A DNA stretch of 48,601 nt from an uncultured Agathobaculum sp. (GTDB lineage Bacteria > Bacillota > Clostridia > Oscillospirales > Butyricicoccaceae), in contig NZ_CALWUN010000008.1 of assembly GCF_944384735.1 (NCBI RefSeq), positions 1 through 48,601 of the forward strand, written 5' to 3'. Each line of letters opens with the position of its first letter. Position 1 is the first letter of the stretch. A model generated the notes under the pieces. The model searched no databases. It saw nothing but the letters and a program-made list of their open reading frames with translations, and was not told where the DNA came from. Positions 22,499 to 42,079 of the stretch are shown here, piece after piece. A program made the translations under genes and the position numbers.

Positions 22499-22677
22499 CG
22501 TATAGGGGACTTCATAAGTCCCCTATATACGAAAAACGGCTTCATAGAAACCGTTTTTCGATACCCGAATGACGCGGCCCCAGGCCGCTAAGTCGTGGTA
22601 TCGCGAAATCGGGCAGAGCTCGATTTCACGATGCCGCTCAAGGTGAATTGCGGCAAAGCCGCAAGAGAAGGTCCCCT
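22499..22677. repeat. structured repeat element, copy A
   Basis: A run of hairpins starts directly after the terminator T-run. A left hairpin CGTATAGGGGACTT/AAGTCCCCTATATACG (22499-22531) is followed by a second one (CGAAAAACGG/CCGTTTTTCG, 22530-22560), a small GCGGCC/GGCCGC hairpin, then a core stem ATCGCGAAATCG/CGATTTCACGAT (22600-22632) with loop GGCAGAGCT, followed by GCCGCTCA. The right end GTCCCCT (22671-22677) is the complement of the left AGGGGAC. Copy B at 41920-42079 has the same layout. MITE-like in form; it lies between the riboswitch and oadB-like gene. Confidence 0.65.
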
Positions 22678-22752
22678 GGGGGATACAGAGCGGCGAAATC
22701 ATGCGCGCTCACGCGCGGTTCACCATTTGTAACAGGAATTGGGGGCGTTTAT

Positions 22753-23880
22753 ATGGAATTTCTATACGAAGGTTTGCTGTCGGTGACGTGGCAGCAGGCG
22801 GTGATGTACTGTGTCGGCGGGCTGCTGATCTGGCTTGCCATCCAGAAGCAGTACGAGCCCGCACTGCTTCTGCCGATGGGCTTCGGCGCGATTCTGGTCA
22901 ACCTGCCGATGTCGGGCGTGGTCGACCAACTGACGCAGGGCGTTGGCACGACGCACGGCATCATCCAATGGCTGTTCGAGGTCGGCATCGAGGCGAGCGA
23001 GGCGCTGCCGCTTTTGCTGTTCATCGGCATCGGCGCGATGATCGACTTCGGCCCGCTGCTCGTCAGCCCCAAGCTGTTTTTGTTCGGCGCGGCGGCGCAG
23101 GTCGGCATTTTCCTGACCATCATCGCGGCTGCGGCGTTCGGGTTTGACATCGTGGACGCCGCCGCCATCGGCATCATCGGCGCGGCGGACGGCCCGACCT
23201 CGCTGCTCGTTTCGCAGGTTCTGGGGTCGAAATACGTCGGCGCGATCGCGGTCGCGGCGTACAGCTACATGGCGCTCGTGCCGATCATCCAGCCGTTCGC
23301 CATCAAGCTGGTGACGACCAAGCGCGAGCGCGCGATGAAAATGCCGTATGCGGCCGGGCAGGTCAGCCGCCGCACGCGCATCCTGTTCCCGATCGTCGTG
23401 TCGATCGTGGCCGGGCTGGTCGCGCCCGCGTCGGTGTCGCTCGTCGGGTTCCTGATGTTCGGCAACCTCATCCGCGAGTGCGGCGTGCTCGAAAGCCTGT
23501 CCAAGACCGCGCAGCACGAGCTGGCCAACCTCGTGACCCTGCTGCTCGGCATCACGATCTCGTTCTCGATGCGCGCCGAGCAGTTTGTCACCCCGGAGAC
23601 GCTGCTCATCCTGTGCCTCGGGCTGGTGGCGTTCACGCTGGACACCATCGGCGGCGTGCTGTTCGCCAAGGTGCTCAACCTGTTCTGCAAGAACAAGGTA
23701 AACCCGATGGTCGGCGCGGCGGGCATTTCGGCCTTCCCGATGAGCGCGCGCGTGGTCGAAAAGCTGGGCGTCGAGGCGGATAAAACCAACCACCTGCTGA
23801 TGCACGCGGCGGGCGCGAACGTCGCCGGACAGATCGCGTCGGTCGTCGCGGGCGGCGTGATCTTAGGGTTCTTCCTGTAA
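22753..23880 (+). CDS. OadB-like sodium-pump decarboxylase beta subunit
   Basis: A protein of 375 residues from ATG 22753, seven nt after GGGGG. It is almost entirely hydrophobic, with about nine to eleven helices, and has the family landmarks GIIGAADGPTS (Asp146) and VGAAGISAFPMSARV. In oxaloacetate, methylmalonyl-CoA and glutaconyl-CoA decarboxylases this subunit couples decarboxylation of carboxybiotin to Na+ export. Only a small gamma-like gene follows; no alpha (carboxyltransferase) or biotin-carrier gene is present, so the partner must be elsewhere or the protein works as a transporter by itself. The riboswitch-like leader upstream suggests control by an ion. Confidence 0.92.
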   Translation: MEFLYEGLLSVTWQQAVMYCVGGLLIWLAIQKQYEPALLLPMGFGAILVNLPMSGVVDQLTQGVGTTHGIIQWLFEVGIEASEALPLLLFIGIGAMIDFGPLLVSPKLFLFGAAAQVGIFLTIIAAAAFGFDIVDAAAIGIIGAADGPTSLLVSQVLGSKYVGAIAVAAYSYMALVPIIQPFAIKLVTTKRERAMKMPYAAGQVSRRTRILFPIVVSIVAGLVAPASVSLVGFLMFGNLIRECGVLESLSKTAQHELANLVTLLLGITISFSMRAEQFVTPETLLILCLGLVAFTLDTIGGVLFAKVLNLFCKNKVNPMVGAAGISAFPMSARVVEKLGVEADKTNHLLMHAAGANVAGQIASVVAGGVILGFFL

Positions 23881-23898
23881 CGAAAGGGGCGTAAAACG

Positions 23899-24027
23899 AT
23901 GAACGAAGCGGTATATACGGCGGTGCAGCTGCTCGGGCAGGGCATGGCGGGCATTTTCACCGTGCTGGCGGTGATCGCGCTGATCGTCGCGCTGCTGGGC
24001 AGATTGGACAAAAAACCGCCGCAGTAA
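23899..24027 (+). CDS. OadG-like small gamma subunit
   Basis: A protein of 42 residues starting at ATG 23899, 18 bp after the beta-subunit gene. It has a single membrane helix (TVLAVIALIVALLG) followed by a short basic tail (RLDKKPPQ). Position, length and the helix-then-basic-tail design match the minimal gamma subunits that hold beta and alpha subunits of sodium-pump decarboxylases together. Larger OadG proteins have a longer cytosolic tail with a zinc site; that part is absent. Confidence 0.75.
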   Translation: MNEAVYTAVQLLGQGMAGIFTVLAVIALIVALLGRLDKKPPQ

Positions 24028-24039
24028 GTGAAAAAATAC

Positions 24040-24068
24040 TTGCCAATCCCGTTTGTTTCTGGTATAGT
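24040..24068 (+). promoter_or_regulatory. tRNA-Val promoter
   Basis: TTGCCA (24040-24045), a 17-bp spacer and TATAGT (24063-24068), about 20 bp before the tRNA. Confidence 0.7.
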
Positions 24069-24088
24069 ATTAGGGTAGCCAGACAAAC

Positions 24089-24165
24089 GGGGTTGTAGCT
24101 CAGCTGGTCAGAGCGTTCGCCTCACACGCGAGAGGTCGTGGGTTCGAGCCCCGCCAACCCCACCA
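24089..24165 (+). tRNA. tRNA-Val (anticodon CAC)
   Basis: A full cloverleaf: acceptor GGGGTTG/CAACCCC, D arm GCTC/GAGC, anticodon loop CTCACAC reading GTG codons, T arm with TTCGAGC, and an encoded CCA end. Confidence 0.97.
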
Positions 24166-24166
24166 G

Positions 24167-24197
24167 CAAAAGCCGTCACGAAAGTGACGGCTTTTTT
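24167..24197 (+). terminator. terminator after tRNA-Val
   Basis: AAAAGCCGTCAC, loop GAAA, GTGACGGCTTTTTTG: a textbook intrinsic terminator directly after the tRNA. Confidence 0.92.
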
Positions 24198-24344
24198 GTG
24201 TTTTACGTAACTTTTTAGCGATTTTCCTTTTGATGGTGTCGGAATACCCATATTTGCAAATTATCGACTATACAGATGGAGCGGACAAAAACAGCGGTGA
24301 ATGACAAAATACGTTGCAAATGTGTTGCAAGAAAATCAGGCGTT

Positions 24345-24548
24345 TTACGGTGCTTCATGCAAGCCGAGCTGGGCGACGTCGTCTATGTTGTCATGATCGC
24401 TGATATTCGCCGTGGTGGTAATGCCAGCGTGCCCCATGCGATATGGTGCGGTTTTCCGGTCGACGAACTGCCGGCGCAAGTGGGTGTAAACGGAACAGCC
24501 GCTCAGCAGCGCCAAAACGGTCAGAAGAGAAACCCATTTTCTGCCCAT
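24345..24548 (-). pseudogene. small frame with integrase-like C-terminus (possible scar)
   Basis: A 67-codon frame from ATG 24548 (GGAGGT upstream) begins like a lipoprotein (VSLLTVLALLSGC). It then reads THLRRQF and MGHAGITTTANI, which resemble the HxLRxxF and GHxxIxTTxxI motifs of tyrosine recombinases, but without the residues that normally lie between and after them. It may be the decayed 3' end of an integrase next to tRNA-Val, or an unrelated small lipoprotein. The 180 bp between it and the tRNA terminator hold nothing I can name. Confidence 0.35.
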
Positions 24549-24572
24549 GCTTCCGTTACCTCCTGACAAAAG

Positions 24573-24603
24573 CGCCGAACCCGGATTGCTCCCGGGTTCG
24601 GCG
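24573..24603 (-). terminator. terminator of the QueD-like gene
   Basis: CGCCGAACCCGG and CCGGGTTCGGCG form a perfect 12-bp stem with a 7-nt loop, followed on the minus strand by CTTTTG; it lies 54 bp after the gene end. Confidence 0.8.
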
Positions 24604-24656
24604 CATCGCAAAGCCTTGACTGTATCGGTTTCCGGAATAACGGCAGAACCGGAAGA

Positions 24657-25223
24657 TCATCCCTTCCGATAGCCGCACTTGGGGCATACGCCGTTTTCGT
24701 TCAGCGCGATGCCGCACAGGGGGCAACGGTCGATCTGGTTGTGGGTGTCGAACTCTGCCGAGGCCGCGTTGACACCGCTGGTAAAGGTGATCTTGGCGAT
24801 GTTCAGCTTATCCTTCAGCAGATCGTAGACGATCTTGATCATGCCCTCCACCGTCAGCGTCTCCTTGGTCACTACCAGACGGCATTCGGGGTAGGCCTTG
24901 GCCAGCTCCGTCTCAAAGGCGGGTCCCTTCATCTGGTTCTGGGGGGCGCCGTTCCGGATGCCCTGCTCCTCATAGACCTTCAAAACAGCGGGCAGCAGGG
25001 GGTCGTCCTGACGCAGGATCAGGGCGTGGTCGAAATTTTTCAGAACTTCCCAGGCGGTTTTCTGGATCTCGTTGCAGGGGAACACCATGTTGACGCCGGG
25101 CTCGATGGTGTCCTCCACCTCAATGGTGAGAACGCCGGTGTGGCCGTGGAGATACTGTGCCTCGCCCTTGAAACCATAAAAACGGTGGGCATACTGCAGA
25201 TCCAATGTCGTGATGCTTCTCAT
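24657..25223 (-). CDS. QueD/PTPS-like protein lacking the catalytic Cys, with zinc ribbon
   Basis: A protein of 188 residues; AAGGAGG precedes the ATG. It has the 6-pyruvoyl-tetrahydropterin synthase fold signature: zinc ligands His13, His26 and His28 (YAHRFYGF, LHGHTG), FDHALIL in the middle and TVEGMIKIVYD near the end. In QueD the catalytic Cys lies three residues before LHGH; here that position is Ala22 (GEAQYLHGH). The tail carries CPLCG and CPKCG, a zinc ribbon not found in standard QueD. No other queuosine gene is nearby. It may use a related pterin substrate or bind nucleic acid; the normal 6-carboxytetrahydropterin reaction is doubtful. Confidence 0.8.
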   Translation of the reverse strand: MRSITTLDLQYAHRFYGFKGEAQYLHGHTGVLTIEVEDTIEPGVNMVFPCNEIQKTAWEVLKNFDHALILRQDDPLLPAVLKVYEEQGIRNGAPQNQMKGPAFETELAKAYPECRLVVTKETLTVEGMIKIVYDLLKDKLNIAKITFTSGVNAASAEFDTHNQIDRCPLCGIALNENGVCPKCGYRKG

Positions 25224-25431
25224 ATCAAAAACCTCCTTGCAAGATGATGAGCCGTGCCAAGCGCCGGGCTCTATGGAAAGCCGCCGCAGCGCTGCGCCGG
25301 GTCCAATGCTTTGTACTTATGATACCGAAACAGTGGGATTTTGTCTGTGATGTGATCACTCTGTTGGGACCCGATAAAAAAATCTGCCGGACGGGTCCGG
25401 CCGGCACTTGTGGACTCCTGCTGCAACGCAG

Positions 25432-25461
25432 TTGACAACCGCCGCACTTGTCCCGTATACT
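25432..25461 (+). promoter_or_regulatory. crp/fnr-like gene promoter
   Basis: TTGACA (25432-25437), 18 bp and TATACT (25456-25461), 25 bp before the start codon. Confidence 0.75.
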
Positions 25462-25486
25462 GAGGACACTGTGAGGAGGACGCAGC

Positions 25487-26143
25487 ATGAGTTTTCAGTC
25501 TTACTTCCCCATATGGGACCAACTTCAACCCCACCAACAGCGCCGGCTTCTCAATTCCCTGACCGCTCAGGCCGTGAAGCGGGATACGTTCCTGCGGGGC
25601 GGCAGCAAGGACTGCGCCGGGCTTCTGCTGATCCGTGCCGGACAGCTGCGGGCCTTTGTCTACTCGGAGGAGGGGCGGGAGATCACCATTTTCCGCCTGT
25701 TTGAAGGCGATCTGTGCCTGTTCTGCGCCCCCTGTGTCATCCCGTCCATTCAGTTTGAGGTGACCATTCAGGCGGAAAAGGACACCGAGTTCTGGAGCAT
25801 CCCGGTAGGGGTCTACCAGCAGCTCATGGCCGAGTCTGCCGCAGTGGCCAATTACACCAACGAACTGATGGCCAGCCGTTTCTCCGAGGTCATGAGCCGG
25901 ATGGAGCAGTTCATGTGGCGGAGCATGGACAGGCGGGTGGCCGCCTTTTTGCTGCAGGAGGCTGCCATCGAAGGGACCTGCGAACTGCGGATCACCCACG
26001 AGACCATCGCCCGGCATTTGGGCTCCCACCGTGAGGTGGTGACCCGTACGCTGCGGGAATTCCAGGGTGCGGGCATGGTACAGCTGTCCCGGGGCAAGGT
26101 GACCATTCTGGACAAGGAACGGCTGACTGACCTGCGCGCATAG
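25487..26143 (+). CDS. Crp/Fnr-family transcriptional regulator
   Basis: A protein of 218 residues; GAGGAGG precedes ATG 25487. The N-terminal cyclic-nucleotide-binding-like beta barrel (about 20-120) contains CLFCAPC, a cluster of three Cys that might respond to redox or oxygen, but the four-Cys pattern of Fnr is absent. A long dimer helix follows, then a winged helix with THETIARHLGSHREVVTRTL (about 165-190). The missing cAMP contacts suggest a non-cAMP ligand. Its targets are not obvious; the divergent QueD-like gene shares the upstream region. Confidence 0.88.
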   Translation: MSFQSYFPIWDQLQPHQQRRLLNSLTAQAVKRDTFLRGGSKDCAGLLLIRAGQLRAFVYSEEGREITIFRLFEGDLCLFCAPCVIPSIQFEVTIQAEKDTEFWSIPVGVYQQLMAESAAVANYTNELMASRFSEVMSRMEQFMWRSMDRRVAAFLLQEAAIEGTCELRITHETIARHLGSHREVVTRTLREFQGAGMVQLSRGKVTILDKERLTDLRA

Positions 26144-26325
26144 CTATGCTTCGTTGCCCGCAAACAAGACCCATAAGCAGGACGGGCCCCCGCTTGTTGC
26201 CGAGATCCTGCTTCACCAAATTGTTCCATTTAACGCACCCGTATCCCCAAAGGTCTCTGTGATGTTTGGATCGAGGTTTACGGGACCCTTCCCATTTTGT
26301 CTCACCTTTCCGATCGAGGTAACAT

Positions 26326-26919
26326 ATGATTCTTGAAACAAAACGATTGCTCCTGCGTCCTTTTTTGGAGACGGACGCGGCGGATGTCTACGAATATCTG
26401 AAAGAACCGGCGGTCAACTGCTTTGCCGATAGGAAGCTGCATTCGCTGGACGAGGCCAGAGAGGCCATAAGAAAGCGCCTTGGCGGGACGGAATACGATT
26501 TCGCCATCACCCTGAAAGACAGCGGCAAGGTGATCGGGGAGATCGACGCCTATCCGGTGGCGGGTGAGCCCCACACGATGCCGAACGCCGTGCAGGATAC
26601 CTTCAGCCCCTGCTGGATGCTGAACGCGGCCTATCAGGGCAAGGGGTATGCCTTCGAGGCGGCGCATGCGTTCTTTGATTATCTGTTCGCCCAAAAGGGC
26701 GCAAGGCGCATTTTTGCCTACACCGAGGATTACAACCTTGCCAGTCAGCGCCTGTGTGAAAAGCTGGGCATGCGCCGGGAGGGCGTGTTTCTCGAATTTA
26801 TCTCCTTTGTGAAAAATCCCGACGGCACGCCCCGATATGAAAACACCGTGCAGTATGCCATCTTGAAAAAGGAATGGGGGCAGCAGCAGGCCGAACAGGC
26901 AGATGGAGGTACAATATGA
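26326..26919 (+). CDS. GNAT-family N-acetyltransferase (RimJ/RimL-like)
   Basis: A protein of 197 residues. It opens with ILETKRLLLRPFLETDAADVYEYL, the usual start of RimJ/RimL-type acetyltransferases; the acetyl-CoA site is in NAAYQGKGYAFEAAHAFFDYLF (motif A) and the C-terminal part NLASQRLCEKLGMRREG is typical. Substrates of this group are ribosomal-protein N-termini, antibiotics or small amines and cannot be chosen here. Its stop overlaps the start of the DUF1801 gene (ATGA), so the two are translationally coupled. The 180 bp upstream hold no gene. Confidence 0.88.
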   Translation: MILETKRLLLRPFLETDAADVYEYLKEPAVNCFADRKLHSLDEAREAIRKRLGGTEYDFAITLKDSGKVIGEIDAYPVAGEPHTMPNAVQDTFSPCWMLNAAYQGKGYAFEAAHAFFDYLFAQKGARRIFAYTEDYNLASQRLCEKLGMRREGVFLEFISFVKNPDGTPRYENTVQYAILKKEWGQQQAEQADGGTI

Positions 26920-27293
26920 GCGCAGCTTCTGTTTCCGAGTATGTGGAGTCGCTGAACGAAGAGCAGCGGCGGTATGTCAGCGCGTTTATTGACTTTATGC
27001 GTGTGGAATACCCGCAGTTGCTCCCGAAAATCTCCTTTTCCATGCCCATGTGGCTGGTCGGGAAAAAGATGAGGGAGGGATATGTGGCGGTTTCTGCGGC
27101 GAAAAACCACTTCTCCGTTCATTTTTCTGACGAGGCGTTTCTGCATCGCTTGGCTGAGAGCCTGCCCGCCTGCAAAAAGGGCAAGCGGTGCATCAATATC
27201 CAATACGGTGATGAATCGTCCTTCCGGGTGGTGGAAGCGGCTGTCCGCGATTTTTTGAAACGCTATCCGGTTGAAGGGAACGCATCCCGATGA
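26916..27293 (+). CDS. DUF1801-family protein
   Basis: A protein of 125 residues with GGAGG ahead of ATG 26916, which overlaps the previous stop by 4 nt. The pattern SVSEYVESLNEEQRRYVSA, then PKISFSMPMWLVGKK, AKNHFSVHF and a basic ending with INIQYGDE fits DUF1801 (YdhG-like) proteins. These small cytosolic alpha/beta proteins often sit beside acetyltransferases or regulators; one relative was proposed as an iron chaperone, but the function is not settled. Confidence 0.8.
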   Translation: MSAASVSEYVESLNEEQRRYVSAFIDFMRVEYPQLLPKISFSMPMWLVGKKMREGYVAVSAAKNHFSVHFSDEAFLHRLAESLPACKKGKRCINIQYGDESSFRVVEAAVRDFLKRYPVEGNASR

Positions 27294-27443
27294 ACGGCAT
27301 GGCAGAGCGCTGGACAGGCACCGATGGCAAATACCCCGAACTACATTGCTGAAACAGCAGTACCGCCTGCGGCACATCGCGCAGCGGGCGGTATGCTTTG
27401 TCGATTGCGCGGGAAACGAATACGCCTGCTTTCCCCAAAAGGC

Positions 27444-27473
27444 TTGTGCAATGACGCAAAAAAGAGGTACAAT
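27444..27473 (+). promoter_or_regulatory. promoter of AgrC-like kinase gene
   Basis: TTGTGC (27444-27449), 18 bp, TACAAT (27468-27473), 54 bp before the ATG. The rest of 27294-27527 has no gene I can support. Confidence 0.55.
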
Positions 27474-27527
27474 TGATACGTCTTGGAGCAGAATGACGAA
27501 AAATGACTGGCTGAAGGGGCGGAACGC

Positions 27528-28787
27528 ATGGTAGATCTGTTTATCATGGAGTATTTGACGGTGTTATATATGATTATGGCGTTTCTGTTTATGGACAGCC
27601 GGTATTCCCGGCGGCGAACGCTTTTCATCGTTTCCAGCGTCACGCTCCTGCTGATGACGGCGGTGGCCGCCCTGCACCGGGCGGCAGATAGGGATGCTGC
27701 CTTTTGGACCTTTGCTATGACCATCCACATCCCGCTGATCCTGCTGCTTTTCACGCTCAGCCGGTTCCGGGGATGGCGGCTGATCTTCCAACAGTTCTCC
27801 GTCGTTCTGTTCTGTACGCTGATCCACCACATATCAGGGCTGATCTACTACCTGTCGGGCAACCGCTTCTGGGTGCTGGTGCTGTCCTGCGCGGTTCTCA
27901 GCGCCTGGGTCATCTGGTTCTTGATCCGCTTTTTGCGGCCGCTGTTTTTCCAGATACTGTTGGAGCTGCACCGGGGCTGGTGGCTGATATGTCTGGTCAT
28001 GGCGACCTACTACATCATCGCCGTCTATCTGATCCCCGGATATGCAGGCTTCGATTTAAGAGGTACCATCATCAAACCGGCGATTGCTCTGCTGATGTTA
28101 GGGTTTTATTCCATTTTGATGTTCCTCTTTACCAGCATCAAAAAGGAGATGGAGGCGCGTCACAACGCCCAAATGTCCGCCTTGCAGTTATCGGCTTTCC
28201 AAAGCCGCATGGAAGCGGTGAAGGCAGCGGAAAATGCGATCCGCACCGAACGCCATGATCTTCGTCACCGGCTTCAGGCTGTGGCCGAGCTGGTGTCGCG
28301 GGGAGATAAAGACGCCGCCCTGAATTTTCTGGATGCGGCGCAGAAGCGGCTGGATGATCAGAAGGAGATCCGCTGGTGCCGTCCGCCGGTTCTGGACGCG
28401 GTATTTTCCTCCTACTTTGACCAAGCCCAAAATCAGGGCATTTCCGTGGAAGCAAAGATCGCCCTTTCCGACACCCTTTCCGTGCATGAGGGCGAATTGG
28501 CCATTGTATTGGCAAACGCTTTGGAAAATGCCATCCACGCCAATCTGGCCCTGCCCCCGGAACAGCGCAAGATCCGATGCAAAGTGGTGGGGATGCCCAG
28601 CGTCATGCTGGAAATCTCCAATCCCTGTGCTGCCGCTGTCACCTTTGACAGCAATGGCCTGCCGGTGGCCCAAAGGGAGGGACACGGCCTCGGGGTGCAG
28701 TCCATCTCCGCGTTTTGCCGGAAAAGCGGCGCCGTCTGCCAGTTTGAACTGACAGACGGTTGGTTTCATTTAAGATTGGTGCTGTAA
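27528..28787 (+). CDS. AgrC/VirS-type GHKL sensor kinase, orphan
   Basis: A protein of 419 residues. Six or more hydrophobic helices fill residues 1-203, followed by a coiled coil and the H-box ERHDLRHRLQ with His243. The GHKL ATPase part has ANALENAIHAN (N box) and GHGLGVQSI (G box). This is the design of AgrC-type kinases that detect peptide signals and pass phosphate to LytTR regulators. No LytTR regulator, AgrB protease or signal-peptide gene is adjacent, so the partner must be elsewhere or has been lost. Confidence 0.88.
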   Translation: MVDLFIMEYLTVLYMIMAFLFMDSRYSRRRTLFIVSSVTLLLMTAVAALHRAADRDAAFWTFAMTIHIPLILLLFTLSRFRGWRLIFQQFSVVLFCTLIHHISGLIYYLSGNRFWVLVLSCAVLSAWVIWFLIRFLRPLFFQILLELHRGWWLICLVMATYYIIAVYLIPGYAGFDLRGTIIKPAIALLMLGFYSILMFLFTSIKKEMEARHNAQMSALQLSAFQSRMEAVKAAENAIRTERHDLRHRLQAVAELVSRGDKDAALNFLDAAQKRLDDQKEIRWCRPPVLDAVFSSYFDQAQNQGISVEAKIALSDTLSVHEGELAIVLANALENAIHANLALPPEQRKIRCKVVGMPSVMLEISNPCAAAVTFDSNGLPVAQREGHGLGVQSISAFCRKSGAVCQFELTDGWFHLRLVL

Positions 28788-28933
28788 GCTGCGCCTGTCT
28801 ACATAACGTCCGGCATAATCATTGGTTCCCTCGGACGCTCCCATAGATTTTAAGCATAACAGAATATTCAATATAAGTATTTGTTATTTCTCCGGGCGGA
28901 TGCTAAAATAAACTCGATCAAACCAATATAGGA

Positions 28934-29163
28934 GAATGTTAAGGAATTAGACGCGTTTTTCCAGCATCTGAACAGGAAAAACCCGTAGAGAGCGGGAGCG
29001 AATTACACCGGTTCATGCACCGGGCCAATTAGGCGGCACTGTGCCGCATGGCAGCGATCAACGGCAGCTGCCATACGTCGGAAGAGCTGCGCGGCTTGCC
29101 CCCCAGCAGACCGGCCGGCCGGTGGATGGGCGCTGCGCGCTGTGCCCGCCAAGGTGATCGGCA
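28934..29163 (+). pseudogene. sugar O-acetyltransferase remnant (Maa/LacA type)
   Basis: Reading across frames gives LDAFFQHLNRK, then (after a one-base gap in an A5 run, 28977-28981) PVESGSELHRFMHRAN, a TAG stop, AALCRMAAINGSCHTSEEL and, after another shift, TGRPVDG. This is the N-terminal Mac domain of maltose/galactoside acetyltransferases. The left-handed hexapeptide-repeat part is absent. Multiple lesions show true decay rather than a single sequencing error. A ribosome site (AGGAGA) remains at about 28931. Confidence 0.7.
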
Positions 29164-29185
29164 AAATTTATGAGGAGGGAAATTT

Positions 29186-29725
29186 ATGAGCAAACAGATT
29201 CTGGTCATTTCCACCAGCCCCCGGAAGGGCGGCAATTCGGATACTTTAGCAGACGCCTTTATCCAAGGCGCCCGAGAGGAAGGACACCGGGTGGAGAAAA
29301 TCACCCTGTACGACAAGGACATTGGGTTCTGCAAAGGTTGCCTTACCTGCGTCAAAACCCAGCGCTGTGTGATCCACGACGATGCGGCTGCCATTGCCCA
29401 GCAGATGCTGACGGCGGACGTGCTGGTCTTTGCCACCCCGGTCTACTATTATGGGATGTGCGGCCAGATGAAAACCCTGCTGGACCGCGCCAACCCGCTC
29501 TATTCCGCGGCCTATCACTTCCGGGACGTTTATCTGCTGGCCGCTGCGGCGGAGGAGAACGAGCACACAGTGGATGGGACGGTCACCGGGCTGCAGGGAT
29601 GGGTCGACTGCTTTGGCAAGGCCCGGCTGGCCGGGACGGTCTTTGCCGGCGGCGTCACTGCCGTAGGGGAGATTCGGGGACACGCTGCCTTGGAACGGGC
29701 CCATGAGATGGGCAGGCGGGCATAA
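29186..29725 (+). CDS. flavodoxin-like NAD(P)H-dependent oxidoreductase
   Basis: A protein of 179 residues with AGGAGGG ahead of ATG 29186. It has the flavodoxin-like FMN reductase fold: STSPRKGGNSDTLADAF at the phosphate loop, FCKGCLTCVKTQRCVIHDD (the Cys-containing loop common in Clostridia iron-sulfur-flavoprotein-like reductases) and ATPVYYYGMCGQMKTLLDR at the isoalloxazine site. The Cys loop has fewer Cys than needed to be sure of an iron-sulfur cluster. It should reduce FMN-bound substrates or quinones in the cytosol. Followed by a lipoprotein gene on the same strand. Confidence 0.88.
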   Translation: MSKQILVISTSPRKGGNSDTLADAFIQGAREEGHRVEKITLYDKDIGFCKGCLTCVKTQRCVIHDDAAAIAQQMLTADVLVFATPVYYYGMCGQMKTLLDRANPLYSAAYHFRDVYLLAAAAEENEHTVDGTVTGLQGWVDCFGKARLAGTVFAGGVTAVGEIRGHAALERAHEMGRRA

Positions 29726-29773
29726 GGGGGAGCAACCTATCTGAAGTGCGTGCTTCGGGGAAGGAGAACTGCC

Positions 29774-30277
29774 ATGGACAAGATTTTTTGTACACTCCTT
29801 GTGAGCATCTGCCTCACCGCCTGCGGTGCCGGGCAAGCTGCGCCCAGCAGCGAGCTGCCACAGGATAGTCTGTTGGCGCAGGGATCAGAGTCTGCGGGGC
29901 AGAACGCCCAGACTCCGGCAGAGGAGGAACCTATGCTGCACATTACCGTAGGAGACCATGAACTCACGGCCACATTTGCGGATAACAGCTCCGCCGAGGA
30001 ATTTCGTGAACTGCTGGCACAAGGCCCGGTTACTGTGGAGATGGAGGACTACGGCGGCTTTGAAAAGGTGGGGTCTCTGGGCACGACGCTGACCCGGAAC
30101 GATACACAGATCATCACCGAGCCCGGCGATGTGATCCTTTATCAGGGTAACCAGATCACCATCTACTACGACACCAATACATGGAGCTTCACCCGGCTGG
30201 CCCGGATCAATGATCCCACCGGTTTGCGGGAAAAGCTGGGGGACGGAGCGGTTTCGGTCACATTCTCCCTGCAATAA
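29774..30277 (+). CDS. cyclophilin-like-fold lipoprotein
   Basis: A protein of 167 residues from ATG 29774, 6-7 nt after AAGGAGA. It has a signal peptide with lipobox LTAC, a low-complexity Ser/Glu/Gln linker, then a domain starting MLHITVGDHELTATFADNSS and including GPVTVEMEDYGGFEKVG and GDVILYQGNQITIYYDTN. This matches the bacterial cyclophilin-like domain (Cyclophil_like2) often found beside flavoprotein reductases, as here. The family has no proven isomerase activity; a small-molecule or redox role is possible. Confidence 0.82.
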   Translation: MDKIFCTLLVSICLTACGAGQAAPSSELPQDSLLAQGSESAGQNAQTPAEEEPMLHITVGDHELTATFADNSSAEEFRELLAQGPVTVEMEDYGGFEKVGSLGTTLTRNDTQIITEPGDVILYQGNQITIYYDTNTWSFTRLARINDPTGLREKLGDGAVSVTFSLQ

Positions 30278-30332
30278 AAAGCAGGCCAGCTTCGGCAGAA
30301 ACACAGACTGCGCTCAAATGGAAAATTGAGCC

Positions 30333-30380
30333 AAAGAAGAGCCTTCCGAAACGCACAGATTTCGGAAGGCTCTTCTTTTT
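30333..30380 (+). terminator. terminator after cyclophilin-like gene
   Basis: AAAGAAGAGCCTTCCGAAA and TTTCGGAAGGCTCTTCTTTTT: an 18-bp stem with an 8-nt loop and a T-run. The A-rich 5' side makes it usable on both strands. Confidence 0.9.
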
Positions 30381-30501
30381 GTCTGTTGCATATGAAAAAC
30401 GGATAGGTCTGATGTGCGCGTCAGGCGGAATGGGGGGCAACAGTCAGTTGCTTTGCTTTTTGCTCCCCCTGTGATACAATGCAGACAAGGTGGTGATCGA
30501 T

Positions 30502-32724: not shown

Positions 32725-32731
32725 TTTCGGT

Positions 32732-35428: not shown

Positions 35429-35436
35429 CAGACAAA

Positions 35437-35466
35437 CAAAAAAGGCAGCGATATGCTGCCTTTTTT
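35437..35466 (+). terminator. terminator after SLH gene
   Basis: AAAAAAGGCAGC, loop GATAT, GCTGCCTTTTTT; symmetric and usable in both directions. Confidence 0.88.
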
Positions 35467-35547
35467 GCTGCCTGCGGCCGCCCGCTCACCAGGGCCGTCC
35501 CATCCGGCTGACGGCCAGCTCCAGTCAGCCAAATCCGGAGCGCTTTT

Positions 35548-37378
35548 TCATTGTGCTTCGCCCCCTGTCAGGATGTCCATGAACGCCTCGCCGGTGATGG
35601 TCTCCTTTTCGTAGAGGAAGGCGGCGAGCTGGTCCAGCTTGTCGCGGTTCTGCTCCAGCATCCGGCGGGCTTTTTCGTGCTGGGCCTTGATGACCTCGAC
35701 CACCTTGCGGTCGATCTGCTGCGGGGTCGCGGGCGGGCAGGCGAGCGAGGCGTCGCCGCTCAGATACTGGTTCTGCAAGGTTTCCATGGCCACCATGTCG
35801 AAGTCGTCGCACATGCCGTAGCGCGCGACCATGGCACGCTCCAGCTTGGCGGCCTGCTCGATGTCGTTGGATGCGCCGGTCGTGACCTCGCCGCACACGA
35901 CCTCCTCGGCGGCGCGGCCGCCGGTGTAGGTGGCGATCTTGTTTTCCAACTCCTGCTTGGTCAGCAGGTATTTGTCGCCGGTGTCCACCTGCATGGTGTA
36001 GCCCAGCGCGCCCGAGGTGCGCGGGATGATGGTGATTTTCTGCACCGGGGCGGATTGCGTCTGCAAGGCGGCCACCATCGCGTGGCCGATCTCGTGATAG
36101 GCAACCACCTTTTCTCGGCGTCGGACAGGACGGCGTTTTTCTTCTGGTAGCCCGCGATGACGACCTCGATGCTTTCTTCCAGACCGGCCTGCTGCACGAC
36201 CGTGCGGCCGCTGCGCACCGCCCGGAGCGCCGCCTCGTTGATGATGTTGGCCAGCTCGGCGCCCGAAGCGCCGGCGGCCATGCGAGCGATGACGCGGAAG
36301 TCGACGTCGTCCGCGGTGTGGATCTTTTTGGCGTGCACGCGCAGGATGGCCTCGCGGCCGGCAAGGTCGGGCAGCTCGACCGGCACGCGGCGGTCAAAGC
36401 GGCCGGGGCGCGTCAACGCCGGGTCGAGAGCTTCCGGACGGTTGGTGGCCGCCAGAATCATCACGCCGGTGTTGCCGGCAAAGCCGTCCATTTCGGTCAG
36501 CAGCTGGGTGAGCGTCTGCTCGCGCTCGTCGTTGCCGCCGTAGCCGCTGCCCGAGCTGCGCTTCTGGCCGATCGCGTCGATCTCGTCGATGAATACGATA
36601 CAGGGCGCCTTTTCCTTGGCCTGCCTAAACAGGTCGCGCACCTTGGAGGCGCCCATGCCCACGAACATCTCGACGAACTCCGAGCCGGAGATCGAGAAGA
36701 ACGGCACGCCCGCCTCGCCGGCCACTGCCTTGGCCAGCATGGTCTTGCCGGTGCCCGGCGGGCCGACAAGCAGGATGCCCTTGGGCATGGACGCGCCGGC
36801 CTCGGTGTATTTGCCGGGGTTATGCAGGTAGTCCACGATCTCGGACAGGCTTTCCTTGGCCTCGTCCTCGCCCGCCACATCGCTGAAATGGATGCCCTGC
36901 GTGGATTGGACATAGATTTTGGCGTTGCTTTTGCCCATGCCGAAGGTCATGGAGCCCTTGCCGCCGCCCGCCTGCTCGAGCAGCTTTTGCGCATATACTG
37001 GCCCAGCCACGCAAAGATGAGGATGGGCAGCACAAAGGTCAGCACAAAGCTCCAGAACGGCGAGATGGGCTCGTCGATGACGCGGGCAAACTCGGCTCCG
37101 GCGTCATGCAGGCGTTGTGTCAGCGTGGGGTCGTCCATGGGGGTCGTCTGGTAGACGGCCTCCCGCGCCTTGTCGGTGAACAGGATCTGGGTGTCCTCCA
37201 CCTGCACCATGCCGATGTCCTGCGCCTCGATCATGTCCATAAAGGTGCCGTAGTCCACCTCGGTCGTCTGGTGGCGCGAGAGCAGCGGCGCGACCAGCAG
37301 ATTGAACAGCAAAACGATCAGCAGAACGATGCCGTAATAGTAGAATAGCGGCTTTTTGGGTTCTTTTACTTCTTTCAT
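35548..37378 (-). CDS. ftsH: FtsH-type AAA+ membrane metalloprotease, two apparent frameshifts
   Basis: Three overlapping frames together encode one FtsH. Part 1 (from ATG 37378) has helix 1, the extracellular domain and helix 2 ([19 protein letters not shown]). Part 2 has the AAA+ module: GPPGTGKT (Walker A), [11 protein letters not shown] (Walker B) and [20 protein letters not shown] (SRH). Part 3 has the zinc protease HEIGH and the C-terminal helices. Shifts occur at AAAA runs on the minus strand (plus TTTT 36985-36988 and 36110-36113). Adding one A at each gives 610 residues (1831 nt plus 2 is divisible by three), the normal size. FtsH removes damaged membrane proteins. The start overlaps the preceding gene (ATGA). 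Likely functional if the shifts are errors. Confidence 0.85.
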
Positions 37379-37806
37379 AACGATTTTGAGTCTCCTTCCT
37401 GCCCGGCATATTGCGCGTCGATGGCCTCCATGGCCAGCAGCAGCGCGCGATCGGCCCCTTGCAGCACAAAATCGAGCGCATACTCGGCCAGAAAAATCTT
37501 TTCCTCCGCAGCGGCCTCCGGGTCGCCGCTGTCGAGCGCCTGCTGCCGCAGGGCGTCCGTTGCCGTTTGGACGCTCTGCGCGATCTCGCCATAGCAGTTG
37601 GCCAGGATGGCCGCCATGCCCGTCCGGGAGTGCCGCAGCCTGTTTTGCAGCGCCAGCGCGGTTTTGTCGTGCTCCTGACGCAGCACGCGCATGGCCTGCT
37701 GCAATTGCGGATGGCCGGCCGTTTCGCTCTGCCGGATGCGGCGGTGCAGCCGGGCAAAGCGCGCGTCCAGTTCGCAGAGCTTGACGGTGAGGATTTCATG
37801 CCCCAT
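37375..37806 (-). CDS. helical protein of unknown function, coupled to ftsH
   Basis: A protein of 143 residues, almost all predicted helix with heptad-like runs (LCELDARFARLHRRIRQSE, LQQAMRVLRQEHDKTALALQ), ending AEEKIFLAEYALDFVLQGAD and RALLLAMEAIDAQYAGQE. I recognise no Pfam-type domain. Comparable helical proteins are found before ftsH genes in other gut Clostridia, to my recollection. The stop overlaps the ftsH start by 4 nt, so it is translated with FtsH and may be an adaptor or regulator; that is inference. A promoter precedes it. Confidence 0.75.
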   Translation of the reverse strand: MGHEILTVKLCELDARFARLHRRIRQSETAGHPQLQQAMRVLRQEHDKTALALQNRLRHSRTGMAAILANCYGEIAQSVQTATDALRQQALDSGDPEAAAEEKIFLAEYALDFVLQGADRALLLAMEAIDAQYAGQEGDSKSL

Positions 37807-37830
37807 GGTCCCGCCTCCCTTCTGTATCCT

Positions 37831-37859
37831 ATTGTACGGGGCGGGGCTGCCGCCCGCAA
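37831..37859 (-). promoter_or_regulatory. promoter of the helical-protein/ftsH operon
   Basis: On the minus strand TTGCGG (plus 37854-37859), 17 bp and TACAAT (plus 37831-37836), 25 bp before the ATG. Confidence 0.6.
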
Positions 37860-37889
37860 TGTGCAGTTTTGCCGCGGTGTATAGACAAA

Positions 37890-37927
37890 AAGCGCCAAAG
37901 TGTAAAAAAACTTACACTTTGGCGCTT
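37890..37927 (-). terminator. terminator overlapping the end of tetR
   Basis: AAGCGCCAAAGTGTAA and its exact complement form a 16-bp stem with a 6-nt loop. On the minus strand it ends in TTTTTGTC. The 5' arm contains the last codons and stop of the tetR gene, so the terminator begins inside the coding region. Confidence 0.9.
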
Positions 37928-38459
37928 GCGGGCTGGCCGTCCCACGGCGGGATGTCCGCCGTCAGCATGTGGTAAACGGTGTGGACGATCTCGTCCAGCT
38001 GCCGGGTGTCCTGCTCCGTCCACGTTTTCAGCATGCTCAGGATCGCCTGACAGTGGTAGCGCTGGATGATCGCCAGCTGGGAATGGGGGCAGTTGGGGTG
38101 GAAGTCCTTCCGCTGGGTCGCTTGGGAAAAATACCACTGGAACCGCTGGCGCAGCAGCCGTTTCAGCTCCTCCCCGTAATTGCTCCGCATCCCGTGCTCG
38201 ACGTAGGGGGCGGCGTTGATGGCAAGGACGAAAAAGCAGCGCAGCCCTGCCTCGCGGTCCTGCTGGTCGAGCGCCCGCCCCATCACCTGCTCGAAATAGC
38301 TGTCGATCATCCAGCGGAGCAGTTCGGGGATGCCCTCAAAATGGTAGTAGAAGGCCTGCCGGGTGATGTGGCACTGGGCTACGATGTCCTTGACGGTCAG
38401 CTTTTTCACATGGCGCTCGATCAGCAGGTCTGCACTGCCTCGGCGATCGTCCGTTTCAT
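37912..38459 (-). CDS. TetR-family regulator with apparent -1 frameshift
   Basis: ATG 38459 starts MKRTIAEA, then the frame is lost near plus 38430-38437. One base later it continues ADLLIERHVKKLTVKDIVAQ, followed by the helix-turn-helix CHITRQAFYYHFEGIPELL and a helical C-terminal domain ending ADIPPWDG. One added base gives 182 residues (548 nt plus 1 is divisible by three). The C-terminal domain resembles TetR regulators of the DhaS/YfiR type. It lies upstream of the ftsH operon but is separated by a strong terminator, so it may act on that operon or on the divergent helicase side. Pseudogene or sequencing error. Confidence 0.7.
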
Positions 38460-38652
38460 ATCGGTGGGCACAGTGGCGCCGCCTCCTTGTTTCCGATGAT
38501 AGGGCGCGCGCCCGCTGCATGGGCGGCGGGCGTGCGCCGCGCGTTCTCCCTTGCGGCAGCAGCCCCATGGCGCCGGCCGCGCGCTGCGGTGCCGCCCTTC
38601 TATTATGGCACAGAATGCGGCGGTCGTAAAGTGGGCGCGTGTCCGCAGGGGA

Positions 38653-38682
38653 TTGACAGCGGCGGGCGCGGCGGGCTATACT
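38653..38682 (+). promoter_or_regulatory. helicase gene promoter
   Basis: TTGACA (38653-38658), 18 bp and TATACT (38677-38682), 28 bp before ATG 38711. Confidence 0.7.
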
Positions 38683-38710
38683 TCCCATAGGAATGATGGG
38701 AGGCGGGGGC

Positions 38711-40867
38711 ATGGAACTGCTGCAAGGGTTGAATGACGCACAGCGCAAAGCGGTCACCACGACCGAGGGCTTTGTGCGCGTGATCGCGGGGGCGGGCTCG
38801 GGCAAAACGCGCGCGCTGGCGCACCGCTTTGCCTATCTGGTCTGCGAGCTGGGCATCCTGCCGGGCAACATCCTGTGCGTGACGTTTACCAACAAGTCGG
38901 CCGCCGAGATGCGCCAGCGCATCCACCTGCTGACCGGCGACAACGACACCGGCTATATCAACACGTTCCACGGCTTCTGCGTGTCCATCCTGCAGGAGGA
39001 CAGCCATGCCGTGCAGTACCCCAAGAGCTTTCTGGTGCTCGACAATGCGGATATCGACGCGATGCTGCAAATGATCTATGAGGAGCGCGGGCTGACGCTG
39101 CGCGACATGACCTTTTCCAGCGCGCGCGACATGATCGAGATCCGCAAGCTGTTCAAGGAGCCGGATTATTACGAGGACATGGTCGCTCTGTCGCTCGACG
39201 CGCTGCGGGAAAAATACGACTGCGCGCAGACCGCGGCCGACATCATCTTCTACGGCTACTTATATCAGGAGAAAAAATGCTTTGGGCTGGACTATAACGA
39301 CCTGATCAAGTTTTCGCTGTACATCTTCCGCGAGCATGCGGACATCCGCCTGAAGTGGCAGCAGCGGCTGGAATACATCATGATCGACGAGTTTCAGGAC
39401 ATCGACCAGCTGCAATACGAGCTGATGGAGGTGCTGTGCGGCTACCACAAAAACCTGTTCATCGTCGGCGACCCCGACCAGACGATCTACACCTGGCGCG
39501 GCGCGAACGTCAAGTATCTGCTCGACTTCGACAAGGTCTTTCCGGGCACCCAAACCATCCTGATGATGCAGAATTACCGCTCGACGCCCGAGATCATAGC
39601 GGCGGCAAACGCGCTGATCGGCAAAAACCAGTTCCGTATGAAAAAAGACCTGCTCCCGACGCTGCCGCACGGCGCGCCCGTCGTGTGCCACTTTGCCGAA
39701 ACGCAGGATGCGGAAGCTGCGTGGATCGCGGACGAGATGCAGCGCCTGCACGGCGAGGGCACGCCCTACCGCGATATGACCGTGCTCTACCGCGCCCATT
39801 ATGTGACGCGCGCGGTCGAGCAGGCGCTGCTGCAGCATAAAATCCCTTACACAATCTACAGCGGCGTGCAGTTCTTTGCCCGCATGGAGATCAAGGACGC
39901 GCTGAGCTACCTGCGGCTGGTCGTCTACCGGGACGACCTTTCCTTCCGGCGGGTGGCCAACGTGCCCAAGCGCAACCTCGGTCGGCGGCGCATGGCGGCG
40001 CTCGAGGAATACGCCGCGGAAAAGCAGTGCACGCTCTATCAGGCGCTGTGCGACCATCTGGACGGGCCGTTCTGCAAGGGCACCAAGGCCGCGCAGCTGG
40101 TCGGGCTGGTCGAGCGCTTTGCCGCGGACAGCGCGGGCAGGCCGGTCTCCGAGGTGCTGGCCGCTCTGCTCGACGAAAGCGGCTATGAGGCCATGCTGCG
40201 CACCGAGGGCAGTCAGGAGCGGCTGGACAACCTAGCCGAGCTCAAGCAGTCGGTATATGAATACGAGACCACCTGCGGCGAGGAAAGCACGCTCGAGCAC
40301 TACCTGTCGCACGTTGCGCTGTTCACCAACAGCGACGCGGCAGGGGAGGAGGACAAGGTCAGGCTGATGACCGTACACGCGGCCAAGGGGTTGGAATTCC
40401 CCTGTCTGTTTTTGTGCGGCCTGTCCGAGGGCATCTTCCCCTCCCGCAAGGTGCGCACGCTGCCCGGCATGGAGGAGGAGCGGCGGCTGGCGTTCGTCGC
40501 GCTGACGCGCGCCGAAAAGCGGCTGTATCTGACGCAGGCCGACGGGCGCAACTTCGACGGCTCGCAGCGCTACCCGTCGCGCTTTGTGCTCGACATCGAC
40601 CCCGACCTGCTCACCTTCACCAAGCCGCCGCAGCAAAGCCTGCTGCGTCAGGCGCGGGACTATATCGACAGCAGCCTGCGCCGCCTGCCGATGGACGAGG
40701 CGGACGGCACGTTGCCGGTGGGGCAGCGGGTGCGGCATGCGATGTTCGGGCCGGGCACGGTGCTGGGCGTCGATCTGGACAAGGGCGCGCATCTGGTCAA
40801 GTTCGACGACATGGAAACGCCGCGCATGATCTCGTTCCGCGCCAAGCTGGAAGCGATCGGCGGCTGA
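38711..40867 (+). CDS. UvrD/PcrA-type DNA helicase
   Basis: A protein of 718 residues from ATG 38711 (GGGAGGCGGGGG upstream). Superfamily 1A motifs are present in order: AGAGSGKT (Walker A), CVTFTNKSAAEM (Ia), IDEFQDID (II), GDPDQTIYTWRGA (III), QNYRS (IV), MTVHAAKGLEF (V) and FVALTRAEKRLYL (VI). The C-terminal end GQRVRHAMFGPGTVLGVD is the Tudor-like domain that in PcrA/UvrD binds RNA polymerase. It unwinds DNA 3' to 5' in repair and in clearing stalled polymerase. It is somewhat shorter than main PcrA proteins, so it may be a second copy. Confidence 0.9.
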   Translation: MELLQGLNDAQRKAVTTTEGFVRVIAGAGSGKTRALAHRFAYLVCELGILPGNILCVTFTNKSAAEMRQRIHLLTGDNDTGYINTFHGFCVSILQEDSHAVQYPKSFLVLDNADIDAMLQMIYEERGLTLRDMTFSSARDMIEIRKLFKEPDYYEDMVALSLDALREKYDCAQTAADIIFYGYLYQEKKCFGLDYNDLIKFSLYIFREHADIRLKWQQRLEYIMIDEFQDIDQLQYELMEVLCGYHKNLFIVGDPDQTIYTWRGANVKYLLDFDKVFPGTQTILMMQNYRSTPEIIAAANALIGKNQFRMKKDLLPTLPHGAPVVCHFAETQDAEAAWIADEMQRLHGEGTPYRDMTVLYRAHYVTRAVEQALLQHKIPYTIYSGVQFFARMEIKDALSYLRLVVYRDDLSFRRVANVPKRNLGRRRMAALEEYAAEKQCTLYQALCDHLDGPFCKGTKAAQLVGLVERFAADSAGRPVSEVLAALLDESGYEAMLRTEGSQERLDNLAELKQSVYEYETTCGEESTLEHYLSHVALFTNSDAAGEEDKVRLMTVHAAKGLEFPCLFLCGLSEGIFPSRKVRTLPGMEEERRLAFVALTRAEKRLYLTQADGRNFDGSQRYPSRFVLDIDPDLLTFTKPPQQSLLRQARDYIDSSLRRLPMDEADGTLPVGQRVRHAMFGPGTVLGVDLDKGAHLVKFDDMETPRMISFRAKLEAIGG

Positions 40868-41028
40868 AAACGGGCGAGCCGCCGGCCGGCGCGTGCAAAA
40901 GCGCGTCCGATGCACGGCTGCCCCGCTTTGCCAGAGCACGCGCGCCGCGCGGTCAACCGCCGCCCCGCCGGATACCACGCACCCGGGTGGCCGCCCTGTC
41001 ATAGATTGGGGGGAAAGGTGGTTTTTCT

Positions 41029-41871
41029 ATGGTGATCCATGTGGTCCAGCCCGGCGACTCGCTTTACCGCATCGCCCGGGCCTATCAGACGCCGCTGCCG
41101 CTCCTCATCCAGCAGAACGAGCTGCACGAGCCTTACCGCTTGACGCCCGGGCAGACGGTCGTCGTGCCGCAGCCGACGCAGACGCACACCGTCCGGCAGG
41201 GGGAGACGCTCACCGCGATCGCGGCGCACTACGGCACGACTGTGCTCGCGCTGCTGCAAAACAACCCGCAGCTGGGCGGCAGCGACCGTATCCGCACCGG
41301 GCAGGAGCTGGTCATCTCCTACGGCCCCAAGCTGGGCAAATTGGCGGTCAACGGCTACGCCTACCCGTCGATCGACCAGCAGGTGCTGCGCAAAACGCTG
41401 CCCTATCTGACGTACTTATCGGTTTTTTCCTACGGCTTTGACAGTCTGGGCCGCATCCTGCCGCAGAATGCCGAAAACCTGACCCGGCTGGCGCGGCAGT
41501 ACGGCGCGCGTCCGCTGCTCGTGCTGACCACGCTGGGCGAGGACGGCCAGTTTTCGAGCGCACGGGCGCAGCAGCTGCTGCGCGACCCGACCGCTCGCGG
41601 TGCGCTGATCGAAAATCTGGCGCAGACGCTCGCCGCGCAGGGCTTCGGCGGCGTGGACATCGACTTCGAGTACATCCCCGCCGAGGACGCGGCGGCCTAC
41701 GCCGACTTCATCCGCGCGGTGCGCGCCCGGCTCGAGCCGTCCGGGTATACGGTCATGGTCGCGCTCGCGCCAAAAACCTCGGCCGGACAGCCGGGGCTGC
41801 TGTATGAGGCGCATGACTATGCCGCGCTGGGGGCGGCGGCGGACGCCGTGCTCCTGATGACGTATGAATAA
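41029..41871 (+). CDS. LysM-GH18 spore-cortex-type hydrolase, C-terminally truncated
   Basis: The frame encodes 280 residues. Two LysM domains (about 2-48, VVQPGDSLYRIARAY; 52-98, TVRQGETLTAIAAHYG) are followed by a glycoside hydrolase 18 barrel with the catalytic GVDIDFEY (DxDxE). This is the layout of YaaH/SleL, N-acetylglucosaminidases acting on spore cortex fragments, usually about 420-430 residues. Here the reading frame stops right after LLMTYE, where the family continues with Trp and the rest of the barrel. About 140 residues are missing. The break coincides with the start of prophage-type DNA, so the gene is interrupted rather than naturally short. Confidence 0.85.
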   Translation: MVIHVVQPGDSLYRIARAYQTPLPLLIQQNELHEPYRLTPGQTVVVPQPTQTHTVRQGETLTAIAAHYGTTVLALLQNNPQLGGSDRIRTGQELVISYGPKLGKLAVNGYAYPSIDQQVLRKTLPYLTYLSVFSYGFDSLGRILPQNAENLTRLARQYGARPLLVLTTLGEDGQFSSARAQQLLRDPTARGALIENLAQTLAAQGFGGVDIDFEYIPAEDAAAYADFIRAVRARLEPSGYTVMVALAPKTSAGQPGLLYEAHDYAALGAAADAVLLMTYE

Positions 41872-41890
41872 GGGCAGGGAGGATACAGAT

Positions 41891-41917
41891 AAAAAGCCCT
41901 GACATGAAGTCAGGGCA
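41891..41917 (-). terminator. minus-strand terminator at the prophage edge
   Basis: GCCCTGAC, loop TTCAT, GTCAGGGC followed on the minus strand by TTTTTATC. It would stop leftward transcripts before they run antisense into the GH18 gene. Confidence 0.8.
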
Positions 41918-41919
41918 CG

Positions 41920-42079
41920 AGGCTGTCGAAAAACACAGTTTTCGACAGCCTCTCGATCAGAACCACGCTTCCGATCGAATCAAATGTATCAAAAAAGCGG
42001 GCAAAGCTCGCTTTTTTGATGCCGCTCACAGAGCGGCTGAATAATGCGCGCTGCGGCGCGAGGACTTTTTCGACAGCCT
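41920..42079. repeat. structured repeat element, copy B (MITE-like)
   Basis: A 160-bp element with perfect 14-bp terminal inverted repeats AGGCTGTCGAAAAA (41920-41933) and its complement (42066-42079). A further complement copy (41939-41951) makes a left-end hairpin. The core stem ATCAAAAAAGCG/CGCTTTTTTGAT (41988-42020) has loop GGCAAAGCT and is followed by GCCGCTCA, with a GCCGCTC/GAGCGGC hairpin next. The loop and flanks match copy A at 22499-22677 while the stem bases differ. No clear target duplication was found. It contains no protein frame. Confidence 0.75.

Follow-up and report, generated by a model that had tools for sequence, protein, structure and literature searches.

A modular family of hairpin-rich repeats in Agathobaculum: one structured module shared by gene-end elements and IS1182-type miniature transposable elements

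The window analysed here is the whole of a 48,601-nucleotide (nt) stretch from an uncultured Agathobaculum species (RefSeq assembly GCF_944384735.1, contig NZ_CALWUN010000008.1, positions 1 to 48,601), in which two structured elements were recognized (Table 1). Element 1 (22501-22721) stands between a terminator-like hairpin and the gene for the beta subunit of a sodium-pumping oxaloacetate decarboxylase. It begins two bases past the T run of that hairpin (22459-22498), and its core match ends about 30 bases before the start of the gene. Element 2 (41918-42081) lies behind the gene of a LysM/GH18 protein. A first-pass annotation had treated the pair as copies of a single mobile element whose ends vary. 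Both elements are real, with folds far more stable than those of shuffled sequences (z -9.3 for element 1 and -7.5 for element 2), and both belong to a modular, hairpin-rich family of repeats in Agathobaculum. They are different kinds, not one kind of element: element 1 is a full element of what is called here type A, with a nested 45-nt insert, and element 2 is a miniature inverted-repeat transposable element (MITE) of the IS1182 family that carries the 3' module of the family as cargo.

Table 1. Features of the two elements and their surroundings (R1 and R2 are the covariance models of the core and of type A P1-P3; see text).
Feature	Position	Strand	Basis and remarks
Terminator-like hairpin and T run, directly before element 1	22459..22492; T run 22494..22498	+	Inverted repeat; no credible Rfam match
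P1, type A hairpin (TATAGGGGACTT / AAGTCCCCTATA)	22501..22527	+	R2 match 22501-22602, 108 bits; fold
P2, type A hairpin, variable stem	22530..22560	+	Fold; changes on both sides in 8 of 12 helix pairs
P3, type A domain (ATACCCGAATGAC-hairpin-AAGTCGTGGTATC)	22561..22602	+	Inner hairpin folds and covaries (4 of 6 pairs)
P4, core stem, loop GGCAGAGCT	22600..22632	+	Inverted repeat, fold; R1 match 22593-22721, 68.6 bits
P5 (GCCGCTC 22633-22639 / GAGCGGC 22688-22694)	22633..22694	+	Inverted repeat, R1; helix opened by nested insert
Nested insert in P5 loop, AGGTGAATTG-hairpin-CAAGAGAAG-hairpin, 45 nt	22641..22685	+	Comparison of copies
P6, terminal hairpin GCGCGC..GCGCG	22703..22717	+	Sequence comparison
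Decarboxylase beta subunit gene, behind element 1	22753..23880	+	PF03977 E 4e-148; TIGR01109
LysM/GH18 protein gene, before element 2	41029..41871	+	Same strand as element 2
Terminator-like hairpin left of element 2	41896..41916	+	Inverted repeat
Element 2, 164 nt, without transposase gene	41918..42081	+	R1 match 41981-42064, 106 bits
Left terminal inverted repeat, closed as hairpin	41919..41952	+	Inverted repeat; resembles IS1182 left end in L248
hpA, AACCACGCTT loop, common to type C elements	41953..41978	+	Inverted repeat, comparison, fold
P4, core stem, loop GGCAAAGCT	41988..42020	+	Inverted repeat, fold
P5, helix GCCGCTCACAGAGCGGC	42021..42037	+	Inverted repeat
Right terminal inverted repeat ACTTTTTCGACAGCCTGA	42064..42081	+	IS1182 right ends in L247, L249, L250

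The 3' module common to both elements runs from a stem capped GGCARAGCY (P4) through the helix GCCGCTC..GAGCGGC (P5) to a GCGCGC hairpin (P6), and the P4 loop is nearly fixed, being GGCAGAGCT in element 1 and GGCAAAGCT in element 2. Alternative 5' modules are placed before it. Type A proceeds through P1, P2, a variable stem with an inner GGTTCCG..GAAACC, and P3 (CGATACCCGAATGAC-hairpin-GGGTCGGGGTATC) to P4-P6, and has the strongly conserved unpaired linkers TATATACG and CGATACCCGAA; in type C the hairpins hpA-hpB-hpC replace P1-P3. Type B, the kind of element 2, consists of the 3' module and the one extra hairpin hpA within IS1182-type inverted ends. As first described, the core loop, the outer ATC/GAT pairs and GCCGCTCA are present in both elements, and the inner stem arms differ and still pair, with one mismatch in element 1.

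An exact core pattern was found in 20 copies in the own genome, with none in the reversed control, and in 11 of 40 genomes scanned (own included), all 11 among the 25 Agathobaculum genomes. A covariance model of the core (R1) was built from 33 sequences (alignment A1, 33 of 40 loci; L002 and L032 were left out for their insert, and L008, L011, L014, L017 and L020 as near copies), and one of type A P1-P3 (R2) from 55 sequences (alignments A2/A3, 55 of 57 loci, two copies with nested inserts being left out). R1 matches all 25 Agathobaculum genomes, own included, at E <=0.01, with 659 matches summed and 81 in the own genome; the scan scored 150 candidates per genome, and weak matches may be plain hairpins. 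R2 likewise matches 25 of 25, with 328 matches summed (E <=0.001). Among 295 genomes drawn from the order 14 were matched by R2, seven of them outside Agathobaculum in three other genera, and in a class-wide draw of 391 genomes, under stricter filters that lose weak matches, the own genome alone was found. Outside the genus R1 gave weak matches (best E 7e-7), and 17 of the 39 matches listed cover the stem only. A match in Desulfovibrio (L143) looks like chance and contains no R2 match.

When the window and six loci were compared with Rfam, only tRNA reached the gathering cut-off and no family fitted the elements; candidates raised at a loose threshold, such as TD-1 (E 2.4 and 0.06), fell far below their cut-offs. 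A genus-directed literature search, which covered open-access papers, returned nothing on such repeats, and a description elsewhere is possible.

The stems covary. In R1, 97.2% of cells are paired and seven of the 15 pairs of helix 1 are changed on both sides in the 33 aligned cores, with none changed on one side only, although one pair of the core stem is unpaired in 11 of these cores. The covariation score is 0.178, compared with 0.059 in shuffled and at most 0.064 in slid alignments. In R2, 95.4% of cells are paired and 16 of 38 pairs are changed on both sides, with a score of 0.248; shuffled alignments gave 0.083 and slid ones at most 0.054. For both models the score was reached by none of 500 shuffles. 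No pair is changed on both sides in the P5 helix of R1, nor in the outer P3 pairing of the R2 alignment. The first-pass annotation had staked its reading on further covarying copies, and many have been found. Each hairpin alone is unremarkable, as chance hairpins or plain terminators would be, and that explanation, refuted by copy number and covariation together, retains practically no probability.

The loops are kept while the stems change, which fits the earlier idea of recognition through the loop. The P1 loop is CTTCANAAG-like in 66 of the 88 unique R2 matches and inverted in none. In the loop test, which took 85 of these copies with three reverse matches left out, the P4 loop had the expected orientation in 65 and was inverted in none, the other 20 fitting neither pattern. 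Among copies fitting a pattern, inversion was seen in one of 64 for P2 (L173) and two of 65 for P3 (L155, L104), and in P5 the loop of L156 looks like the inverse of that of L179.

Complementary ends had been described for both elements, and they hold for element 2, which has real terminal inverted repeats. Element 1 has no terminal inverted repeats such as mark a MITE, because its apparent right end, GTCCCCT (22671-22677), sits in the nested insert, where it faces GGGGGAT, and the R1 match runs on to 22721. On the left, AGGGGAC forms part of the closed P1 hairpin and is not an end repeat. Most other type A copies examined are without the nested insert that bears this apparent right end, and the same insert module lies reversed in the P4 loop of other copies in the own genome (L095-L103). 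The P5 bases of element 1 are paired otherwise in the minimum-energy fold. The two left-end hairpins, once regarded as the same feature, are the first type A hairpin in element 1 and an IS1182-type terminus in element 2.

Ends like those of element 2 stand beside transposase ends or terminators in the genus, with TCAGTCTGTCGAAAAA on the left (L248) and TTCTCGACAGRCTGA (L247, L250) or TCTTTGACAGTCTGA (L249) on the right; NCBIfam names the IS1182 family for L247, L249 and L250, below its cut-off, in pieces that are cut short. Ten of the 29 type B rows (L005, L006, L011, L013, L014, L020, L037, L095, L097, L105) carry at both ends an exact repeat 20-28 bp long, abutting or one base off, and in these ten the repeat is a complete terminator hairpin. 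Others have a shorter or imperfect repeat, and in a few of the 29 the search pattern misplaced the left end. No target duplication was seen at element 2 itself, whose flanks are two different hairpins. Type B has no clear preference of orientation: an upstream gene on the same strand was found in 19 of 28 cases, and convergent sites make up 14 of 28.

As element 2 is a MITE, like its sister copies, both elements might be ordinary MITEs that belong to one family and whose ends have drifted. Two type A copies in another genus (L291 and L297, genome G108) do lie between ends like those of IS1182-type MITEs, and L291 has a second copy of the flanking terminator hairpin that differs by one mismatch. 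However, element 1 and the other Agathobaculum type A copies examined have no such ends and are placed at gene ends. A single MITE family for both elements is rejected, since the ends differ in origin, and the explanation as a whole is improbable.

The placement of type A was surveyed with the 88 unique R2 matches, 66 of which lie between two genes of the same strand, in sense with them. Six rows are antisense to both genes, comprising one site in three species (L178, L190, L193) and three weak reverse matches that overlie sense copies (L170, L222, L229); for the remaining 16, a neighbour was not called or the strands are mixed. In 51 of the 66 no more than 15 nt separate the start of type A from the stop codon before it, and in 10 cases the gene caller took the stop codon from the element's own TATAG. 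By reading, the 15 longer distances belong to five signal recognition particle (SRP) RNA sites, four rpmJ sites, two decarboxylase leaders, three nested inserts and L200; the gene caller misses open reading frames under about 40 amino acids and RNA genes. In other genera, R2 matches were found in sense behind genes read as efp, rplI, atpG, purH and serS. Elements at the same place before the decarboxylase gene as element 1 are also present in L032/L155, L121 and L165.

Two sites were followed across the genus, with types assigned by eye. Between pheS and pheT an element is present in 20 of 25 genomes, 12 with type A (one truncated and two followed by an inverted type C) and eight with type C, besides four with none and one unresolved. 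At the second site, upstream of dnaX, a structured element separates the SRP RNA from its terminator (L334-L357). Here 18 of 24 genomes have an element, eight of type A and 10 of type C (one of them divergent), and the rest comprise one decayed copy, one remnant, three without an element and one cut by a contig end. The SRP RNA reached the Rfam cut-off in two of these loci (L337, L357) and was identified by likeness elsewhere. At both sites types A and C share the 3' module. By eye, no target duplications or terminal repeats were seen for types A and C.

The sense placement behind gene ends, including the end of a non-coding RNA, and the occupancy of the same sites across the genus lead us to infer that the elements act within the transcript, at the 3' boundary of the gene upstream. 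Types A and C would thus be structured spacers acting at gene ends, a reading to which we give a probability of about 0.45. Such a spacer might set the trimming point of the upstream RNA, or its lifetime relative to the downstream cistron. The loops would be the recognized part, as for recognition by a protein or an RNA, and the stems would need only to pair; selection on pairing and template switching in DNA replication would each do part of the work of keeping them perfect. More tentatively, the family may be a new class of portable gene-end RNA module, with a conserved 3' domain and exchangeable 5' domains, placed in sense behind housekeeping genes and SRP RNA, kept by the genus and recognized through its loops, pieces of which were taken up by MITEs as cargo in at least two genera. 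If the elements are active as RNA, up to tens of copies per genome would mark gene ends, often beside housekeeping genes, and RNA end formation and cistron-by-cistron stability could be tested at many natural sites at once.

Several observations weigh against action in the transcript. Four of the 25 genomes have no element at pheS-pheT, one of them with a gap of only 18 nt, and three of 24 have none at the SRP RNA site. Type C is not confined to the sense orientation (10 sense, eight antisense and five convergent among 23, by a rough count), and inverted type C copies were found near the examined sites in three loci, following a sense type A at pheS-pheT in L317 and L331 and beyond the SRP RNA terminator in L350. 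The downstream genes are functionally mixed, with up to 45 distinct starts among the 66, some perhaps split by start calling. On the side of structure, 60 of 500 shuffles for R1 and 22 of 500 for R2 attained the observed number of further pair types. There is no excess of G-U over A-C mismatches: departures of the G-T and A-C kinds number 9 and 10 in P1, 3 and 17 in P2, and 36 and 45 in P3 over the 88 unique rows. Fold energy has no preference for the sense strand, being lower in sense for 32 and in antisense for 42 of the 80 matches folded out of the 88 (p 0.12). At orthologous sites, where P1 and P2 were compared in 19 nearest-neighbour pairs, the counts are 33 pair-to-pair changes, six changes involving G-T, 10 involving A-C and 12 others.

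For rRNA genes, template switching is reported as a process that both creates and maintains hairpins, and loop inversion is named as its footprint (PMC8794818). As template switching would give both the G-T/A-C balance and the strand symmetry, covariation alone is no proof of RNA function, and DNA template switching may contribute to the upkeep of the stems. The earlier view of covariation as the mark of selection on structure is weakened by G-T being about as rare as A-C and by the lack of a sense-strand folding preference.

The main rival reading is that the repeats are selfish, non-autonomous mobile DNA with no host function. Such repeats would survive where an insertion harms least, in the gap from a stop codon to the following ribosome site, and in whichever orientation disturbs transcription least, and their stems would stay perfect through template switching and the spread of whole modules. 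The absence of G-U bias, up to 81 R1 matches in a genome, the clear signs of mobility in the type B form and the nested inserts of further small hairpin modules, one of which occurs in both orientations, are all as expected of selfish DNA, and the inverted-looking loops listed above for P5, P2 and P3 resemble the footprint of template switching (PMC8794818). Less readily explained are the occupancy of the same two sites, with intact stems, in most species, and the rarity of loop inversion. Nor was a transposase family found throughout the genus: a Y1-type transposase occurs in five of 25 genomes, and the IS1182 transposase model matches in 15 of 25, with one genome above the curated cut-off. 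The selfish reading is close in weight to action in the transcript and quite possible, if on balance doubtful. If it is right, the family is a clear case of heavy covariation without G-U excess, and a warning for covariation-based RNA discovery. Under either reading it is unusual that one site can hold either of two 5' halves, and that a MITE which targets terminators has taken up an RNA-like module.

A metabolite-sensing leader, or riboswitch, placed before its target genes would account for the strongly conserved unpaired linkers and for the position of element 1 between a terminator-like hairpin and a gene. A stop codon, however, usually precedes the elements, inspection by eye showed neither a T run nor a sequestered ribosome site behind them, and only tRNA and SRP RNA matched Rfam at cut-off. 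No common pathway was seen in the downstream genes, which by reading are mixed housekeeping genes. A riboswitch for one pathway is rejected on that account, and a sensing leader of any kind is very improbable. The leader before element 1 (22340-22498) contains promoter-like boxes, recognized by eye, and the terminator-like hairpin ahead of the decarboxylase gene, with no credible Rfam match. A suspected likeness of its part at about 22370-22450 to the manganese riboswitch found no support in Rfam, and it is not claimed.

The nearest known kinds are the bcr repeats of the Bacillus cereus group and the BOX repeats of pneumococcus. The repeats bcr1-bcr18 are short, intergenic and specific to the group, with 40-51% of copies in transcripts, operon gaps included; bcr10 and bcr18 have a conserved structure, and the presence of bcr3 correlates with mRNA decay rate (PMC3446304). 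The Agathobaculum family is similar in being a group-specific set of short intergenic repeats; its copies are interspersed and their stems covary. Compared by description, they differ from bcr in their sense placement at gene ends, in the two alternative 5' halves per site and in the presence of the 3' half on IS1182 MITEs. The BOX, RUP and SPRITE repeats of pneumococcus are structured and co-transcribed, BOX being modular, and are over-represented between convergent genes (PMC3049150); pneumococcal repeats also cluster and insert into each other (PMC10969869). The Agathobaculum family resembles them, in so far as these accounts go, in being structured, modular and mutually inserted, whereas type A lies mostly between genes of the same strand, and its ends, as far as seen, do not resemble an insertion sequence as those of BOX do. 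IS1272, a member of the IS1182 family, targets terminator hairpins and reportedly removes a portion of the hairpin, with no duplication (PMC4923244). Type B is similar to IS1182 elements in its inverted ends, found beside IS1182 transposases of the genus, and in its insertion at terminator hairpins. Unlike what is described for IS1272, the whole hairpin of 20-28 bp is duplicated in the ten rows mentioned above, and the cargo is a structured module.

Repetitive extragenic palindromic (REP) sequences, with the bacterial interspersed mosaic elements (BIME) built on them, and enterobacterial repetitive intergenic consensus (ERIC) sequences are intercistronic palindromes that alter mRNA decay or attenuation. 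The Agathobaculum elements are longer, with five to six hairpins and conserved linkers. Given the few genomes of the genus with a Y1 transposase, a REP element with its REP-associated tyrosine transposase (RAYT), and Y1/RAYT mobilization as a general source, are rejected.

Other small modules were noted within the repeats. A nested module, AAGGTGAATTG-hairpin-CAAGAGAAG-hairpin, which has variable stems of its own, occurs in either orientation in the hairpin loops of other elements (window 22641-22685; L095-L103, L104, L138, L157, L183). A second one, CAGCCCGTAGGCC..CTATC..hairpin..AATGAGTGAAAG, is found whole or in part in P1 or P4 loops (L104, L161, L167, L180, L188, L196). In some type B copies (L001, L012, L037, L100-L103, L112) the P6 hairpin is enlarged by a further inverted module (GCATTTTATCGCCGCACAGCGGCG..CGGGCTACGGCCTG). 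The left end of the window also has fragments of an IS1182-like transposase, at 9-437 on the minus strand.

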